Virus record (IMG/VR): IMGVR_UViG_3300044858_004878
Coordinates: 1 to 28,911 of that record
Direction: 5' to 3' (one strand)
DNA: 28,911 nucleotides
Source: a virus
The notes beneath the pieces are model-generated. The model saw only the letters and a program-made list of their open reading frames with translations, did no database searches and had not been told where the DNA came from. Each line of letters begins with the position of its first letter. Position 1 is the stretch's first letter. Positions 4,901-26,548 of this stretch are shown piece by piece. The position numbers and the translations under genes were made by a program.

Positions 4901-6653
4901 CATAGAACTTGACATGAAGATGTGCCTTGTTATAGTGCTCCGCCTTTGTTCTCCAAGAGAAGAAATACCTCTCCCCAGCAGTGACTGCAATCCTGTTTGT
5001 GCTTGCGAGCTCTGCGTCCTGATGGTCGTTGCCGACGTAATAGACGCTATTACCGACACCGTATGGGCCAGTGGCTCCAGTTGTGTCTACTGAATATGAG
5101 CCAACCGACCAACCAGAGCCTGCGGTGATTGCAATAGAGCCACCCGTGAGATTCAGCGCATTAGAAGTTGCTGCAGTAAACGTAAATGTGGTTGAGGAGG
5201 TGACGGTAATTGTGTAGGTGTTGCCGTTTACGTCAGCCGCATTAGTGCCAGTAGCCCCAGAGACCGTGACCGAATACCCAGTGTAAAGACCATGCGGGTA
5301 GGCAGTGGTTGCCGTCTTTGCCGTTGATGCTGAGCTTGTAATCTTTGAGACACTGACAGTCTTGTTGGCATCAAAGAGACCATTGGTGATTAGGTCGCTC
5401 AGCGCCTTGCTCTTTACGTTCAGTGGGATCGTGAGGTTTCCGCCGCCATCAAGTGTCCCTGCGCCAAGGTAGAACACACCGTTTCCACGCTCTACCGCAT
5501 ATTGCAGGTTCCTTGAAAGGGTTCCGCCCTTCATTGGGGTTGGAGTGATTTCACCAGCGCAGGCAGCAGTTCCTGTCGCTGCACCAGAGGTAATCGTTCC
5601 GCTCGTAATTGTCGTGTAGGTAAAGGTGGTGTCAGTTGGGACTGACGCAATAACAAATGACCCGTTTAGATCCGCGAAGCCAGACGGGCCGTTGGTCAGG
5701 GCAATGGTCACGACGCGATCTTGACCAAAGCCATGGGGTAGTGGCGTTGTAATAGTTGCTGTCGTGGTTGTGCGGGCTGCATTGCTAACCGCCCGAGTGA
5801 TGTCTGGGTTGCGCGGGCTCCAGCGCCAATCAGGATTCAGATCGGTAATATTTCCTGCAATGGTGGAAACGCGAGAGTCCAACTGGGGCGCGTTGGCCGT
5901 AGTCATGAACCCCGGCACGCTGACCGCTCCAGTTACTGCAGCGCTTGCGCTATCCGCCACATTGGAATACTGCTGGAATCTAAGCTTGTAGGTGCTCCCC
6001 TCTGACGCGATGCCAGTAATCTTGTGCACACCGTCGTAGGTATCGTCGCTAATGTTTACGACGATGGTGTCACCGATCTCAAGGTTTCGGCTATACGGGG
6101 CACCAACTGAGATTGAGCTGACGGTGATCGCCGCCAGACCCGCAGTCCTCTCAGCAAAGCTCGGGGTAAACGTGTACGTGCCGCTAGTGATGGTCTGCTT
6201 GATGGTTGAGTTTGCAAGCGGCGTGAACTCAAGGGCAACAGCCTCATCAAGGAGCGCGGTATAGTCCACCGCGTCAATGGAGCCAACAATGGCACCGCCA
6301 TCTCGGTTCTCGGAAACCCTTGTGACAACCCCGCCCCAAAGGATGGTGTGCGGGCTCGTGGATACGTCGCGAATCTGGATTTCTGTCCTAGAGGGGATAT
6401 CGAGGTGGTAGAACTGATCGTCTATGGCGTTTTGGATCTTGATGGCCTCTGTCGCCCCTGTGTACGATGCCCAGTTCGTGGTGCTGACGGGCATGATGCT
6501 GTAGATGTTTGCCCGCATTGTTGAGGCATTGCCCTGATCGTTCTGCTCCCACTCAAGGGAGTCAAACTCAACATGCTTGCTGAAGTCATAGAACGCTGTT
6601 TGACTGGAGGCAGCAGGAAGCCGGGGCTGGATGTATACGCGAATTTCAGCCAT
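1920..6653 (-). CDS. Tail hub/fibre protein with FnIII and S74-type chaperone end
   Basis: This 1,577-residue protein should sit at the tail tip and bind the host. Residues 1-150 and about 700-830 resemble a tail hub, split by inserted modules. Three modules share a pattern with HG, VNG-like and TTFT motifs (about 290-365, 440-510, 1010-1090); a weaker one lies near 165-225. Residues about 505-655 look like a carbohydrate-binding jelly roll. A fibronectin type III domain spans about 865-970. Low-complexity fibre repeats rich in TAGTI, ATITG and GNIS follow (1150-1430). The C-terminus (about 1465-1577) matches the intramolecular chaperone/peptidase S74 plan: SVKKNIEP with S1470 and K1472/K1473, GLAIEQLKEAIP, and a final coiled coil. 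The gene starts inside the tape-measure stop (TAATG), with GGGAGG upstream, so translation is coupled. Confidence 0.87.
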   Translation of the reverse strand: MAEIRVYIQPRLPAASSQTAFYDFSKHVEFDSLEWEQNDQGNASTMRANIYSIMPVSTTNWASYTGATEAIKIQNAIDDQFYHLDIPSRTEIQIRDVSTSPHTILWGGVVTRVSENRDGGAIVGSIDAVDYTALLDEAVALEFTPLANSTIKQTITSGTYTFTPSFAERTAGLAAITVSSISVGAPYSRNLEIGDTIVVNISDDTYDGVHKITGIASEGSTYKLRFQQYSNVADSASAAVTGAVSVPGFMTTANAPQLDSRVSTIAGNITDLNPDWRWSPRNPDITRAVSNAARTTTTATITTPLPHGFGQDRVVTIALTNGPSGFADLNGSFVIASVPTDTTFTYTTITSGTITSGAATGTAACAGEITPTPMKGGTLSRNLQYAVERGNGVFYLGAGTLDGGGNLTIPLNVKSKALSDLITNGLFDANKTVSVSKITSSASTAKTATTAYPHGLYTGYSVTVSGATGTNAADVNGNTYTITVTSSTTFTFTAATSNALNLTGGSIAITAGSGWSVGSYSVDTTGATGPYGVGNSVYYVGNDHQDAELASTNRIAVTAGERYFFSWRTKAEHYNKAHLHVKFYDSGGTFVGNSHGYDICKVDSPNNEWSRNYGLIQVPATATQMTPVLHHESFASSHSVYYTDIQAIKLTGAFGFSDRVAEDESYYNGLTSGSIDLRDFENPSAPEESGEASNRIYVYAPYTVEDPLTGARQVTAYRNTYDFVQGVWSAGGKRIEASIVELDATDETTAMLTAQQYFKERGISLRSFEFEHISGPLNVGDVIPFIWNELGIAEALVVRRQVGYLIGQEVFYRVQLGGDMSFQRSTMYLVERRLKEITGDAAYFSPPPSPYPGYPTEGGIVTPASPSGDAGSEKIDISWEYPQSVLSGASFGGFVVLRSGDAGDNWVKASTGEAILTAQNPLAPDTAVPSFTDTTVTASTGYVYKVAAVDVSGAAPVLTEYSAETTTLTPTAPGGADFTDAYDGLGLNIPKIVDSVDHYNGYAKNIATLASGASTTATVTITGGHGMTTGSGEVYVVHIKGVTGANSGDVPDGYYAATYATSTTFTITKTGTNSLSLSGGIATIYRVGGGFLVETVSYTLTGTPGSVETQYPLGQLVYAENDGKLYRNGKVGTNLFDYYWTRAAVDAIDVSADGQVSISADRLTAGTIDAGIINVTNLNASDITTGTLTSIAINAGSGTFSVTSGGALTASSATITGSVTATSGTIAGWTATTVGDDRLHAGSGSNFVGLSTGSTAIFAGATSSTGTGALFSVTSAGAMTATGAALTSVGVSGTTSLPGILISKPADKGDIAVPSGQALTMGFWNGSTLDARININSSGNTTISGRTTLDIQGGINFYDGTTNRGRLRASTATSRIVSEVPLNVDGLLTVSTGGIDVTGSATFSSGISALGNISCGAIIQTTGSTNHFQYTEVPAATTTSNPNTVTGVMFVELVSGVYRFRRSTTASYASVKKNIEPAENYLTPQQFSALNFIRYQYDAEKLIAQFPIYDEVSEQVQYGLAIEQLKEAIPSAVVAPDIENYPETIDWQQIYIAAMVSLQDAVQRIEALEARIAELET

Positions 6654-11707: not shown

Positions 11708-11978
11708 TATTTAGAAGTTCCGCCTTCGCTTTTGATGTTCCGAATTGGCTTACCATCTGATCAAGAGACTGTTTAGATCCAGTGCTTTGACCGCCAGATC
11801 CTGAGGAAGGCGACTTACTCGACCTCTGCATCTCTCGGTCTCGTTTTTCGGCGTACCCCGCGAAATCCGATAGCTGCGGAAGGGTGAGCTGGAGAAACTG
11901 TTCTGGTGTGAACCCAAAGGCGTCCGAATAGGACGCCGAGAGCTCACCCCAGTTTATGCTGCCCCAGTCGCTTCCTCT
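11700..11978 (-). CDS. T extension of tail assembly chaperone G-T (-1 frameshift product)
   Basis: This frame has no start of its own: it is reached when ribosomes on the G gene slip back one base at the GGGAAAA heptamer (11984-11978). After the slip it reads through WGELSASYSDAFGFTPEQFLQLTLPQLSDF in two blocks typical of phage T extensions (an aromatic-rich helix followed by an LTLPQL motif), then a charged and serine-rich tail, 92 residues in all, ending at TGA 11702-11700 inside the tape-measure start. Joined to the first 91 residues of G it gives a G-T protein of about 183 residues. In lambda, G and G-T hold the tape measure while tail tube subunits assemble. Position, slip site, overlapping frames and coding-like composition agree. 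Confidence 0.88.
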   Translation of the reverse strand, partial: RGSDWGSINWGELSASYSDAFGFTPEQFLQLTLPQLSDFAGYAEKRDREMQRSSKSPSSGSGGQSTGSKQSLDQMVSQFGTSKAKAELLNNG

Positions 11979-12250
11979 TTTCCCTGAGCGGCCTCGTCGC
12001 TTCCAAGAAGACCACTAGCCTTAAGAACCTTGTTGGTTTCCTCCTGCATTGTCAGGAGGTTGAATCGCTCCCCGACGTCGTTGAGCGTGATGCCTGGCTC
12101 TTCCTTCTTGAGCACAAGCCAGAGGATCTTGCGAATGACGACGAATCGAGCAAGGTCAATCACGTCAAGTGGACCAAACTCCGTCTCAAGCTCCGCAAGG
12201 TCGTTGAGATTGAGGGCTTTCTTACCCTTAAGTTCCGCGAGGTTTGACAT
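11954..12250 (-). CDS. Tail assembly chaperone G
   Basis: This 98-residue protein is the unshifted product of the gene between tail tube and tape measure, the invariant place of the G chaperone in siphophages. It is helical, with LNDLAELETEFGPLDVIDLARF and a hydrophobic core IRKILWLVLKKEE shown here in parts, then a short acidic tail AAQGKEEATGAA after the slip site. I chose ATG 12250 (MSNLAELKG) because GGGAG lies at the right distance upstream; a TTG 15 bases earlier would place the binding site inside the gene. The slippery heptamer GGGAAAA sits eight codons before its stop. A promoter lies about 85 bp upstream of this start, between it and the tail tube gene. Function is assigned mostly by position and the frameshift. 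Confidence 0.85.
   Translation of the reverse strand: MSNLAELKGKKALNLNDLAELETEFGPLDVIDLARFVVIRKILWLVLKKEEPGITLNDVGERFNLLTMQEETNKVLKASGLLGSDEAAQGKEEATGAA
11978..11984 (-). other. Programmed -1 frameshift slippery site GGGAAAA
   Basis: On the minus strand the heptamer reads G GGA AAA in the G frame (codons Gly-Lys), the canonical X XXY YYZ pattern and one base different from the lambda G-T site GGGAAAG. Both P-site and A-site tRNAs can re-pair after a one-base backward slip. The -1 frame then stays open for 92 codons up to the tape-measure start. Confidence 0.9.
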
Positions 12251-12333
12251 ATTTCTCCCTAGCAACCCGTGGCTGCTATTTACATCTATGCCCGACCAGA
12301 CGACACATGTCGTACTTTGGTGGGGGCGGGTAC

Positions 12334-12376: not shown

Positions 12377-12432
12377 TGTGGGGTCGAGAGCCGAAGCCCC
12401 CGACCCCACAGATTAAAGCGCTAAGGCTTTAA
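12377..12432 (-). terminator. Tandem hairpins after the tail tube gene
   Basis: Directly after the tail tube stop is a 7-bp hairpin, TTAAAGC with GCTTTAA (12413-12419 with 12426-12432). Next is a 15-bp stem (12377-12391 with 12396-12410) closed by a UUCG loop when read on the minus strand. In that RNA all 15 pairs form, two as G-U; on the plus strand they would be A-C mismatches, so the structure belongs to the minus-strand transcript. No T run follows, so it may stop transcription weakly or protect the 3' end of the tail tube mRNA. Confidence 0.65.
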
Positions 12433-18385: not shown

Positions 18386-18415
18386 AAGGGGACCGGGCTT
18401 TCGCCCGATCCCCTT
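18386..18415 (-). terminator. Hairpin terminator after the major capsid gene
   Basis: Arms 18386-18398 and 18403-18415 form a 13-bp stem with a GAAA loop on the minus strand. One pair is G-U in minus-strand RNA but C-A on the plus strand, so the signal belongs to the capsid transcript. Only TTTCTG follows, a poor T run; partial read-through to the connector genes is expected. Confidence 0.68.
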
Positions 18416-22593: not shown

Positions 22594-24786
22594 ATGGCAG
22601 AACAGCGCTCCATTCTTCAGCGTCTCTTCGGCGGCGGAACGCAGCCAACAACGGAGAAGGCAACCCCGTCATTCGCACCTGACGCTGCCCCGTATGCTCG
22701 TGGCGCCCAGTCAATAAACACGATTGCCAAGATGAGCACGGAGCAATTGCGACGATGGTCAAGGAACAACCCTTGGATTCGCGCCGCCGTGAACCTCAGG
22801 CGACAGCAGATCAGCCGCGCAAAGTGGGACATCGTCACCACCGATGCTGGCGATAGCGCAAATCCACGAACCGTTCAGAAGTTGCGCGAGCTGTTCCGCC
22901 GACCAAATCCGAAGGGAGAGTCTTGGCGCTCATTTATTGAGCCAGTGATTGAGGACATTCTCGTTCTAGACCAAGGCGCAATTGAGATTGAAAAGAAAGT
23001 CGGATCTAGGGTCGGAGCAGATCCGGTTGCATACCTCTGGAACAAGGATGCTGCTCGCATTGCCTTTGATACCACCTGGGATGGCAGGGACGAAAGCAAG
23101 CCGCGATACTACGAACTTGACAGCGCTGGTCGGCAGGTTGCGATTTACAAGAACGATGAACTTATCGTTGTAATCGCGAACCCAGTGACATACAGCCCAA
23201 TTGGACTTTCTCCGCTTGAAGTTCTTGCTGAAACAATCGCTGCAGACCTAGATGCGGCGGCATATAACGCAAAAGCCGTTTCGCAGGCCGCGCCTCCCGG
23301 TGTTCTACATCTTGGAGAGGGCGTGCGACCAGATCAGGTTGACTCGTTCAAGGCATATTGGGAAGCAGAGGTTGCCGGCAAGAGCCAGATTGCTATAACT
23401 GGCGGCGGCAAGGGCATGCAGTGGCTTCCACTCGCTGCATCAAACCGCGACATGCAGTTCATGGAGTGGCAGGTCTACCTTGCCCGAAAGATTTGCGCCG
23501 TGTTTGCGGTTCAGCCGCAGGACATCGGCATTTCATTTGATGTGAACAAGAGCACATCAGAGACTGGCGCTGCATTCACCTACGACAACGGCATTGTTCC
23601 GCTCGCAGAGCTTATTGCCGAGTACCTAACTCGAGAGGTTGTTGCCAGATACGACACCGACCTTCGCTTTGTCTTTACCGAGATCGGGCGAACCGCGCAG
23701 CAGAACATTGCCGAATACAACAAGATGGCGCTTGGCGGACTTCCTTGGCTGCGAATCAACGATGCGCTCCGAGAGCGGGGTCAGGATGGCATCGGTGAGA
23801 TCGGCGATCAGATTCTCTTCCAGACACCAAAGGGATATGTTCCATCAGACCGCTACGCAGAGTACCTAGAGAAGGTTGTCTTTGGCACCGGCTCCGTTAA
23901 CGAGCCACCAAGCCCAGATGACTCGGACCTAGGAGGCATCCCAGATGGCGAAGATATGGAGCCAGATCCTGGGTCCAGCAACCCGCCAAATCAGAACCCG
24001 TCCGACCTTGAGAGCTCTCTCAAGCTGACCATTGAAATTGACGAGACCAAGTCGGCTGGAGATGAAATTATCATTTCAGACATTGACGGGGCGTTGACCT
24101 CATCGGACGGCACGGATCAGGTGAATGAGATTGTCGCGGATTACCTGCGACGAAAGTCTGACAGCCACAAGATCTTTATTGTGAGCGCAAGGTCTGTGAA
24201 GCGTCTGCAGGAAACACAGGAATGGCTTGAGGAGAACGACATTCCTTACGACGACATTCACCTCAGCGACTTCCCTGCTGGCTCTGGCCTCCAGTTTAGG
24301 AAGTACAAAATCTCTAAGATCCTCAAGGACAACGGTAAGGTGGTTGAAGCAATTGACGGAGACGCAGATGCGCGTGAAGCCTATCGTGCGCTCGGTGTTC
24401 AAAGCGTTCACGCCCCAGCCGATCTAGCGGACAAGCACGCTGCCGCAGATTACTCTGGCATAAGCCTGAATGTTCCTTCTGCAGTAAAGTCCGAAGCCAA
24501 GCGTGGTCTTGATTGGCGACGTGAATTCGGACGTGGCGGGATAGGCCCAGGTCAGACAACTGCAAGAATGCTTATTAGCAACACAATGACGATCCCCCGC
24601 GTTCGCAAGATGAGGGCATTCCTTGCTCGACATGAAGTAGACAAGCAGGGTGAGGGATTTAAGCCGGGACAGCCCGGGTTCCCTTCTGCTGGTCGCATTG
24701 CATGGGCGCTTTGGGGTGGAGACGCTGGTGTTGCTTGGTCAAATAAGATCATGCGCCAAGTTGAGGCCCGCGAGAAAAAGCGATAA
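22594..24786 (+). CDS. Portal protein fused to a HAD-like phosphatase and a conserved C-terminal domain
   Basis: Residues 1-430 are an HK97-type portal: RWSRNNPWIRAAVNLRRQQI near the start, AYLWNKDAARI, the NPVTYSPIGLSPLEVL segment and QPQDIGISFDVNKSTSE in parts. It forms the dodecameric DNA gate of the head. After an acidic proline-rich linker (435-475), residues about 485-615 form a HAD-like phosphatase with all four motifs: SDIDGAL (D496, D498), VSAR (S531), K572 or K575, and DGDADAREAYRALGV (D588, D592), most like the phosphatase half of Pnkp. Residues 632-730, with RGLDWRREFGRGG and FPSAGRIAWALWGGD, match a domain found at the ends of many phage head proteins. GGAAGG precedes ATG 22594. 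Length is nearly twice a usual portal. Confidence 0.9.
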   Translation: MAEQRSILQRLFGGGTQPTTEKATPSFAPDAAPYARGAQSINTIAKMSTEQLRRWSRNNPWIRAAVNLRRQQISRAKWDIVTTDAGDSANPRTVQKLRELFRRPNPKGESWRSFIEPVIEDILVLDQGAIEIEKKVGSRVGADPVAYLWNKDAARIAFDTTWDGRDESKPRYYELDSAGRQVAIYKNDELIVVIANPVTYSPIGLSPLEVLAETIAADLDAAAYNAKAVSQAAPPGVLHLGEGVRPDQVDSFKAYWEAEVAGKSQIAITGGGKGMQWLPLAASNRDMQFMEWQVYLARKICAVFAVQPQDIGISFDVNKSTSETGAAFTYDNGIVPLAELIAEYLTREVVARYDTDLRFVFTEIGRTAQQNIAEYNKMALGGLPWLRINDALRERGQDGIGEIGDQILFQTPKGYVPSDRYAEYLEKVVFGTGSVNEPPSPDDSDLGGIPDGEDMEPDPGSSNPPNQNPSDLESSLKLTIEIDETKSAGDEIIISDIDGALTSSDGTDQVNEIVADYLRRKSDSHKIFIVSARSVKRLQETQEWLEENDIPYDDIHLSDFPAGSGLQFRKYKISKILKDNGKVVEAIDGDADAREAYRALGVQSVHAPADLADKHAAADYSGISLNVPSAVKSEAKRGLDWRREFGRGGIGPGQTTARMLISNTMTIPRVRKMRAFLARHEVDKQGEGFKPGQPGFPSAGRIAWALWGGDAGVAWSNKIMRQVEAREKKR

Positions 24787-24886: not shown

Positions 24887-25369
24887 ATGAGTCACGATTA
24901 CTTCAAGGCGTACCGGGAGGGACACGAGTACAACGGGTACGTCGCCGACTACCTAAGAAGTAAGGGGATTGACTGCGAAGTCCCAGACCTAGAGATTGAA
25001 GAAGACCCGACTCGGTGGTCTAAGTTCACGCAAAACGAAAAAGACATCATCCTAGCCAATGGAGATGTTATTGAGGTTAAGTCAATTAACCAAAACTTCA
25101 CCGATGACCCATCCTCTTGGCCCCTAGAGAGAGCCATCGTTGACACCTATAGCGGATTCAACGGCAAAAGCAAGCGCCCAATCGCATATGTGTTTGTGAG
25201 CCAGAAAACCAAGAAGATGCTAGCAATGTCTGCTGAAAAACCAAGCGCGTGGTCTGTTGAGCGCAAGTTTGATAAGTATCGCCAGAAAGAGGACGACTTC
25301 TATTTCGCCCCAAAGAGCATGCTGCGACCAATGGACAAATTGGTGGAGTACCTACGGGGGCGACAGTGA
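24887..25369 (+). CDS. PD-(D/E)XK family nuclease
   Basis: This 160-residue protein has the nuclease signature EKDIILANGDVIEVKS: D53, then E63 and K65 in the ExK element, with an acidic residue (E14 in GHEYNGYVADYL) on the first helix. This is the core of PD-(D/E)XK endonucleases, which cut DNA with two metal ions. The rest has YVFVSQKTKKM as a strand and a long C-terminal helix. It may serve as a resolvase-like, restriction-like or recombination nuclease; the target is unknown. ATG 24887 has GGGAGG upstream, in a 100-bp gap after the portal. Its last codons overlap the GTG of the HNH gene (GTGA), so both nucleases are co-translated. Confidence 0.78.
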   Translation: MSHDYFKAYREGHEYNGYVADYLRSKGIDCEVPDLEIEEDPTRWSKFTQNEKDIILANGDVIEVKSINQNFTDDPSSWPLERAIVDTYSGFNGKSKRPIAYVFVSQKTKKMLAMSAEKPSAWSVERKFDKYRQKEDDFYFAPKSMLRPMDKLVEYLRGRQ

Positions 25370-25689
25370 AGCGATCCCAGATCAAAAGGAAGATTCGCCA
25401 CAAGGACCCAGTCACCCTTGCCGTCGCCCAAGAGGTCTTTAAAAGAGACGGAGGGTGTGTCGGACCAAAGATTGGCATGATGGGTCTCTGCGGTACGCAG
25501 TTCGGCCCGTCCGACAGGTTCGGGCTAGAGCTTGACCATGTCAACGGGTCTGGGCTGGGGAAGAGGGGTCCATCTATCCCGCAAAACCTAGTCTCCCTCT
25601 GCGGGCTTCACCATCGGATGAAGACGGAGCAGTCTAGGGTCTGGAGGCCCCTGCTTAACGAATACCTTCATAAGTTTTACGGTCAATAA
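25366..25689 (+). CDS. HNH endonuclease
   Basis: This 107-residue protein shows an HNH fold: C31 and C42 with C79 and H82/H83 can hold zinc, LDHVNG gives D57-H58 (metal and general base), N74 in PQNLVSLC is the central N, and H82 or H83 the last H. Small phage HNH proteins often assist terminase in DNA packaging or act as homing enzymes. The close coupling to a PD-(D/E)XK nuclease rather than to a terminase makes packaging less certain. It starts with GTG 25366, overlapping the upstream stop. A 28-bp palindrome begins 11 bp after its stop codon and may also act as its terminator. Confidence 0.85.
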   Translation: MKRSQIKRKIRHKDPVTLAVAQEVFKRDGGCVGPKIGMMGLCGTQFGPSDRFGLELDHVNGSGLGKRGPSIPQNLVSLCGLHHRMKTEQSRVWRPLLNEYLHKFYGQ

Positions 25690-25699
25690 CTAAAGACAC

Positions 25700-25727
25700 G
25701 GCTCCCCTTGACATGTCAATGGGAGCC
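25700..25727. promoter_or_regulatory. 28-bp palindromic operator over the -35 box
   Basis: Arms GGCTCCCCTTGACA and TGTCAATGGGAGCC match at 13 of 14 positions with no spacer. The centre, TTGACATGTCAA, is a perfect 12-bp palindrome that includes the -35 hexamer of the regulator promoter. TGTCAATG occurs again at 25738-25745, 24 bp downstream of the copy at 25714-25721. A dimer bound here would block polymerase. Confidence 0.7.
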
Positions 25728-25736
25728 ATATAGAAT
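25708..25736 (+). promoter_or_regulatory. Consensus sigma-70-like promoter
   Basis: TTGACA (25708-25713), 17 bp, TAGAAT (25731-25736). All six -35 bases and five of six -10 bases match consensus; it is the best promoter in the window. The start would be near 25743, 23 bases before the zinc/HTH regulator, with GGAAGGAG in the leader. Confidence 0.82.
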
Positions 25737-25765
25737 GTGTCAATGAAGATGGAAGGAGCGACCAA

Positions 25766-25993
25766 ATGGCGAATTGCGTGAATTGCGGAAAGCAGGTCAC
25801 GTCGCCTGAGGCTGCTCGGTGCTGGTGGTGCAACCACAAACACCGCTCCACTTCGGCTCTCGCGTCGCTTGAGGTCCGAGCGAAAGAGATCCAAAGACTT
25901 AAGGACTCTGGAATGACGATGGTAGAGATTTCAGGGAAGCTTGGAATCAGTCGCCAGCGCGCATATCAGATCCTTGAAAGGGTAAAGAAGTGA
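25766..25993 (+). CDS. Zinc-ribbon plus helix-turn-helix regulator
   Basis: This 75-residue protein joins a zinc ribbon (C4/C7 and C19/C22) to a helix-turn-helix: AKEIQRLKDSGMTMVEISGKLGISRQRAYQILERVKK, in short parts, is like sigma region 4 or LuxR/resolvase-type HTH segments. It should bind DNA as a small transcription regulator. It is the first gene behind the strongest promoter of the window, whose -35 box lies in a 28-bp palindrome, so autoregulation is a reasonable inference. ATG 25766 has GGAAGGAG upstream. Its stop overlaps the GTG of the next gene. Confidence 0.82.
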   Translation: MANCVNCGKQVTSPEAARCWWCNHKHRSTSALASLEVRAKEIQRLKDSGMTMVEISGKLGISRQRAYQILERVKK

Positions 25994-26277
25994 CAGAAAA
26001 CCGAGAGATTGAGTTGGAGCTTCGCGGCAGGTCCTGCTTTGTTGCCGCTCTTGAATCTCATGCGATTGCAACCACGCTTGGCGACAATCAGGCAAGCGAA
26101 AAGGAAAGCATTCTGCTTTCTGTGGTTGCGGATGCACACGAGCTCCTTGAGGCAGAGCTGACAGAGTCAGGGGAAATCATTGACTCCGAAGGTCGTCTCT
26201 GGGTTAATCGCGGCATCAGCCTCGCCTGCGAGGAGTGGCTCCGATCACCGGACGACATTAACACGGTAGGTGTCTAA
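25990..26277 (+). CDS. Hypothetical acidic protein
   Basis: This 95-residue protein starts at GTG 25990, overlapping the stop of the zinc/HTH gene (GTGA). It is acidic and mostly helical, with ALESHAIATTLGDN, then EKESILLSVVADAHELLEAELTESGE and a strand GRLWVNRGISLACEEWL, given here in parts. I do not recognise a family. It ends eight bases inside the next gene. Tight coupling suggests it acts with the two regulators on either side, but no function is evident. Confidence 0.65.
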   Translation: MTENREIELELRGRSCFVAALESHAIATTLGDNQASEKESILLSVVADAHELLEAELTESGEIIDSEGRLWVNRGISLACEEWLRSPDDINTVGV

Positions 26278-26548
26278 ACTTAGTGGGGAAAAGGGGAGAG
26301 AATGGCGCTTGATGCAGCGCGCGGCATGCGCACACATCTGGCAGATCATTGACGACTCTTGCATTCCACACGATGTCGTGGCAAAATACCTAGAGTGTCA
26401 CCCGCAGTACCTTCGGGACCTGCGGTTTGGGCATGTGAAGATGAGCCAGCCAATGAGGGCTAAGATTAGCGACTTCCTTGGGGTTCCCGAGGAAGAGTTG
26501 TTTAGGGAGTATCTGCTCAGAGCGGCAGAGCTCAAGAAGGGAAGGTAG
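26270..26548 (+). CDS. XRE-type helix-turn-helix protein
   Basis: This 92-residue protein starts at GTG 26270, overlapping the upstream stop by eight bases. After a basic helix, IIDDSCIPHDVVAKYLECHPQYLRDLRFGHVKMSQPMRAKISDFLGVPEEELF, in short parts, has the five-helix plan of Cro/cI-like domains: a recognition helix (PQYLRDLRFG), a turn, then the helix closing with LGVPEEELF, a typical end of this fold. It probably binds DNA or acts as a small repressor. Its N-terminus also has H and C residues that may be fortuitous. It belongs to the operon driven from the palindrome promoter. Confidence 0.7.
   Translation: MSKLSGEKGREWRLMQRAACAHIWQIIDDSCIPHDVVAKYLECHPQYLRDLRFGHVKMSQPMRAKISDFLGVPEEELFREYLLRAAELKKGR

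Follow-up and report, generated by a model that had tools for sequence, protein, structure and literature searches.

The 28-bp palindrome at 25700-25727 of the window (the whole stretch of 28,911 nucleotides analyzed here, an IMG/VR record of an uncultivated phage) is probably an operator for negative autoregulation, through which the 75-aa zinc-ribbon HTH protein (ZnR-HTH) encoded by the first gene of the downstream operon would occlude sigma at the -35 box. Judged by comparison of related phage sequences, support for the operator reading is good, and ZnR-HTH is the likely binder. The element itself is of an ordinary kind. The features of the region are as follows.

25366..25689, plus strand: HNH endonuclease-like gene, upstream (PHROG 333, E 0.0011); stops 10 bp short of the palindrome
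25700..25727, no strand assigned: imperfect 28-bp palindrome GGCTCCCCTTGACATGTCAATGGGAGCC, 13/14 pairs
25708..25719, no strand assigned: candidate operator core TTGACATGTCAA, two TGTCAA half-sites back to back, the left half being the -35 box
25708..25713, plus strand: -35 box TTGACA, left half of the dyad core
25720..25725, plus strand: TGGGAG, right-hand extension of the candidate operator within the promoter spacer (conservation 0.90)
25731..25736, plus strand: -10 box TAGAAT (in relatives TATAAT, CATAAT, TACAAT, TAGACT, TAGGAT or TATGCT)
25738..25745, plus strand: repeat of TGTCAATG where transcription is predicted to start, unconserved in relatives
25751..25758, plus strand: ribosome-binding site GGAAGGAG, predicted from sequence and followed by the ATG at 25766
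25766..25993, plus strand: ZnR-HTH, 75-aa zinc-ribbon HTH protein, the proposed binder (Pfam HTH_23, 1.1e-5, above the cut-off)
25990..26277, plus strand: 95-aa protein with no assigned function; its start overlaps the preceding stop
26270..26548, plus strand: 92-aa XRE (Cro/C1-type) HTH protein, operon gene 3, assigned by fold and family matches

The original prediction described a 28-bp palindrome with 13 of 14 positions paired and a perfect 12-bp center that includes TTGACA, and exactly this was found at 25700-25727. The two arms, 14 nt each, meet with no gap and are complementary at 13 of 14 positions, and the central 12 bp (TTGACATGTCAA) pair perfectly; the layout is GGCTCCCC (left outer arm), TTGACA and TGTCAA (core), and TGGGAGCC (right outer arm). 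It is the best ungapped dyad of the whole window. Of 400 dinucleotide-preserving shuffles of the window, 3 yielded an ungapped dyad with 13 or more of 14 positions paired, which puts the chance of so good a dyad at about 1% for a window as a whole and far lower for the -35 box of a promoter. That some 1% of shuffled windows contain a dyad as good is the one point in favor of the palindrome being an accident in an ordinary promoter. This explanation is scarcely credible, because it is contradicted by the TGTCAA in the spacer, which a promoter does not need and which is nevertheless 99% conserved across lineages.

The promoter, TTGACA-17-TAGAAT at 25708-25736, matches 11 of 12 consensus positions, and the right half of the dyad sits inside its spacer. 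The spacing between the -35 and -10 boxes is 17 bp in the relatives (18 in one). It had been called the strongest promoter in the window; the near-consensus match stands, but two further sites, at 4909 (plus strand) and 12362 (minus strand), match equally well at 11/12. The latter is a promoter-like sequence (TTCACA-17-TATAAT, 12362-12334) that heads a leftward gene (11954-12265), and a dyad with 15-bp arms is located just upstream of it, at 12377-12410. Two strong intergenic dyads with 4-nt loops, at 727-752 and 18386-18415, resemble terminators of converging units.

ZnR-HTH is encoded on 30 IMG/VR contigs, and the dyad was found ahead of its gene on 29 of them, 27 with the exact core and 2 with one change (TTGACATGACAA). 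On the 30th contig, L007 (IMGVR_UViG_3300008114_002686), the -10 box and the ZnR-HTH gene are present, but the dyad, the -35 box and the end of the HNH gene are absent, owing to a natural deletion or to a chimeric assembly. When all viral contigs were scanned with the extended pattern CTNNNNTTGACATGTCAANGGNAG, 26 were found, all among the 30 that encode ZnR-HTH. All 13 records examined have a single copy of the core, and further copies of the palindrome, looked for elsewhere in the genome, were not found. Per-column majority across 12 lineages was 1.00 for TTGACA, 0.99 for TGTCAA and 0.90 for TGGGAG, compared with 0.72 for the left outer arm, 0.76 for the -10 box, 0.55 across the remaining spacer and 0.46-0.56 in the flanks. 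The dyad overlaps promoter elements, and its conservation exceeds what a promoter needs.

The lineages that keep the dyad are well diverged, their synonymous-site identity having drifted to 28-80%. The exact core is retained in L042 and L134, whose ZnR-HTH genes match the window at 9/27 and 16/31 four-fold sites, respectively, and the core is retained with one change in L135, where 7/25 four-fold sites match. Since the core was kept while four-fold sites drifted, the selected element is the 12-bp core plus TGGGAG and not the 28-bp stem. The full 28-bp length initially taken as the feature thus has to be given up, as the outer arms vary among relatives. The TGTCAATG repeat reported downstream of the -10 box is indeed present at 25738-25745, but it is kept only in near-identical phages, and the idea of a second operator copy at 25738 was rejected on the same observation.

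It had also been suggested that the palindrome forms a hairpin that might end the HNH transcript. Such an RNA element, whether a terminator or a processing hairpin, would agree with the fold predicted for this sequence in the window (-18.1 kcal/mol, z -3.4). However, there is no T-run (the plus-strand sequence after the stem is ATATAGAATG), no terminator was called at the site, Rfam gave no match, and the promoter's own transcript is predicted to begin only downstream of the hairpin. In the outer stem, pair 7 is broken in 7/12 lineages and pair 10 in 5/12, and none of the six inner pairs has a compensatory change in any of the 12; the loss of outer pairs together with the lack of covariation in the inner ones argues against an RNA stem. 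We therefore reject the terminator and regard any function as RNA as very improbable.

The operon encodes, in order, ZnR-HTH, the 95-aa protein, the XRE protein, a 196-aa protein of an unknown phage family, a PD-(D/E)XK nuclease (RecB/Cas4-like), a 134-aa protein and a DnaC-like helicase loader. Its first genes overlap start-to-stop, in the style of a coupled operon. The first product had been described as a zinc-ribbon HTH protein, and the 75-aa protein has a Pfam HTH_23 match (1.1e-5); the XRE gene, said to be four genes on, in fact comes third in the operon, two genes after the first. Farther upstream, the portal protein (22594-24786) has a HAD-like phosphatase/polynucleotide-kinase-like stretch at its C-terminus (residues ~480-608), fused to the end of the portal domain.

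A wider comparison was based on the nuclease family, which brought in 76 loci that were sorted into classes by the small genes of the operon: the window belongs to class A, class A′ consists of L118-L121, L130 and L180, and class B of L166-L177 and L182. In class C, no ZnR-HTH was detected within 4 kb of the nuclease gene, and the promoter-like sequences are different ones. Class A′ ZnR-HTH proteins share ~70% identity with that of the window, and the core is kept while the outer arms are lost. The class B proteins are remote and longer (35-41% identity), and a different conserved promoter motif, TTGACGATAC-NN-TYGT...ATACT, is found ahead of their gene, usually as the sole copy in the record. 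The exact core was present in both class A′ records checked and in 0/25 class B/C records. Nine one-mismatch palindromes in class B/C were inspected and dismissed; all are at other positions, most of them within reading frames, and none adjoins a ZnR-HTH gene. Cultivated relatives were not found, by DNA or by the 75-aa protein, among the phage records searched, and the only relative of the nuclease among cultivated phages was in halovirus HCTV-5 (26%). No relatives were found in the bacterial genomes searched, and TTGACATGTCAA was not found printed in the literature searched.

These classes bear on which protein the dyad serves. The dyad could be the operator of the 92-aa XRE (Cro/C1-like) protein, since dyads are typically bound by XRE proteins as dimers; this protein has a clear five-helix XRE HTH fold (matching C.BclI and ClgR with probability 1.00), its homologues match HTH_31/HTH_3, and its gene shares the operon in class A/A′ phages. 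However, XRE homologues are carried by class B and C phages without the exact dyad, and the recognition segment of XRE differs from group to group (HPQYLRDLR in class A, HPKYLDDMR in L135, NENYLRDLR in class A′) while the core dyad stays. Because XRE homologues occur in every class and the exact dyad only with A-type ZnR-HTH, the dyad follows the product of the first gene rather than XRE, and we consider the XRE protein an unlikely binder. Based on the same comparison, the dyad co-occurs with the adjacent gene for a predicted DNA-binding protein, ZnR-HTH; the linkage may be due in part to shared ancestry, class A/A′ phages all being related. A protein encoded outside the operon, either a host regulator or an activator that switches the promoter on from the -35 region, would be an equally good fit to a dyad placed over the -35 box of a near-consensus promoter, and the gene of an elsewhere-encoded factor could be missing from the incomplete records. 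We consider such a factor quite unlikely, given that the dyad is present where the operon's first gene is and that an activator is unnecessary for a consensus -35 box.

The candidate binder itself was modeled with AlphaFold (pLDDT 90), and the model has a three-helix HTH at residues 31-75. This HTH resembles KorB/ParB, sigma region 4 and DeoR-type domains; the structural matches are middling and indicate only a common arrangement. The recognition helix, SRQR[A/V/I]YQ, is invariant at all but one position in 18 sequences. It lines up, as SRQRxYQI, with TRERIRQI of region 4.2 of E. coli sigma70; the Sigma70_r4 match (0.0014, 18.5 bits) is below the curated cut-off of 24.1, and hhalign gave a probability of 35% for ZnR-HTH against E. 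coli RpoD. A stronger, albeit short, alignment (30 columns; hhalign 90%) was obtained with the HTH of the TipsytheTRex/L5 immunity repressor (TRQAVSW). In a PDB search with ZnR-HTH, other HTH proteins outranked the L5-type HTH. The L5-type likeness thus supports ZnR-HTH as the probable binder but is not specific. Class B ZnR-HTH has a near-identical recognition helix, yet its promoter does not contain the TGTCAA second half-site, so the helix alone leaves the site unexplained.

The loop that we propose would operate as follows. Early transcription is predicted to start at ~25743, and ZnR-HTH would accumulate from the first gene. It would then bind the dyad as two subunits, one per TGTCAA half-site, and the bound protein would keep sigma region 4 off the -35 box, so that the early operon would be shut down once enough ZnR-HTH had been made. 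Autoregulation and control by the XRE protein had been offered side by side; an operator with autoregulation is the part that holds, the core being constrained, single-copy and ahead of the ZnR-HTH gene, and XRE control is the less likely part. The 12 longer records, which are fragments, were searched for both main types of integrase and gave none; this fits a virulent phage, in which the loop would be used for timing rather than as a lysogeny switch.

A more speculative and rather doubtful extension is that a stand-alone ZnR-HTH with a sigma4/L5-repressor-like helix reads the -35 sequence itself, that these phages have duplicated the -35 box in inverted orientation, and that the class B sister phages, whose helix is almost identical, use TTGACGATAC-NN-TYGT instead. 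If true, it would point to a family of -35-box-mimic repressors in which the geometry of the site evolves. The system may be an example of a small -35-reading HTH turning repressor, and the differing promoter motifs of the sister groups offer a natural series on the joint change of operator and protein. A phage group with no cultivated member in the searched collection gains a short candidate operator and a 75-aa candidate regulator.

KorA/ArdK, Cro and the C-proteins are autoregulatory repressors with operators that overlap their own promoter. The arrangement proposed here is similar, in that a small HTH protein is made from an operon that it may itself control and the dyad is within its own promoter; ZnR-HTH, however, is a zinc ribbon joined to an HTH_23/sigma4-like helix trio and is neither XRE nor KorA. 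Sigma region 4.2 reads TTGACA, and the recognition helices of the two proteins (SRQRxYQI and TRERIRQI) would both read this sequence. In contrast to sigma70 region 4.2, ZnR-HTH is a stand-alone protein of 75 aa and is proposed to exclude sigma, not to act as one.

In the TipsytheTRex/L5 repressor, two residues at the start of the recognition helix, R45 and Q46, contact one guanine each, the sites are GGTGG[A/C]TGTCAAG, and the variable middle positions 8 and 9 have been assigned to K75 and D78 of the second domain (PMC9283540). In L5-type phages, Pleft, the promoter for early lytic transcription, has an operator (PMC6550527, PMC9283540). We counted 16 TGTCAAG in 22 kb of TipsytheTRex, all on the same strand. 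We infer that the L5-type HTH reads the CTTGACA/TGTCAAG end of the site; the dyad of the window is two ends of this type placed back to back. Both systems have a phage HTH whose recognition helix carries Arg-Gln at its start, and sites that contain TGTCAAG. They differ in the sites, which in cluster A phages (operators and stoperators) are asymmetric, 13 bp long and present in 20-30 copies oriented with transcription, whereas here the dyad is symmetric and occurs once per record. They also differ in the protein: the cluster A repressor (~183 aa) has HTH and Stoperator domains, whereas ZnR-HTH, with 75 aa and a zinc ribbon, has no room for a Stoperator domain, and only the HTH aligns.
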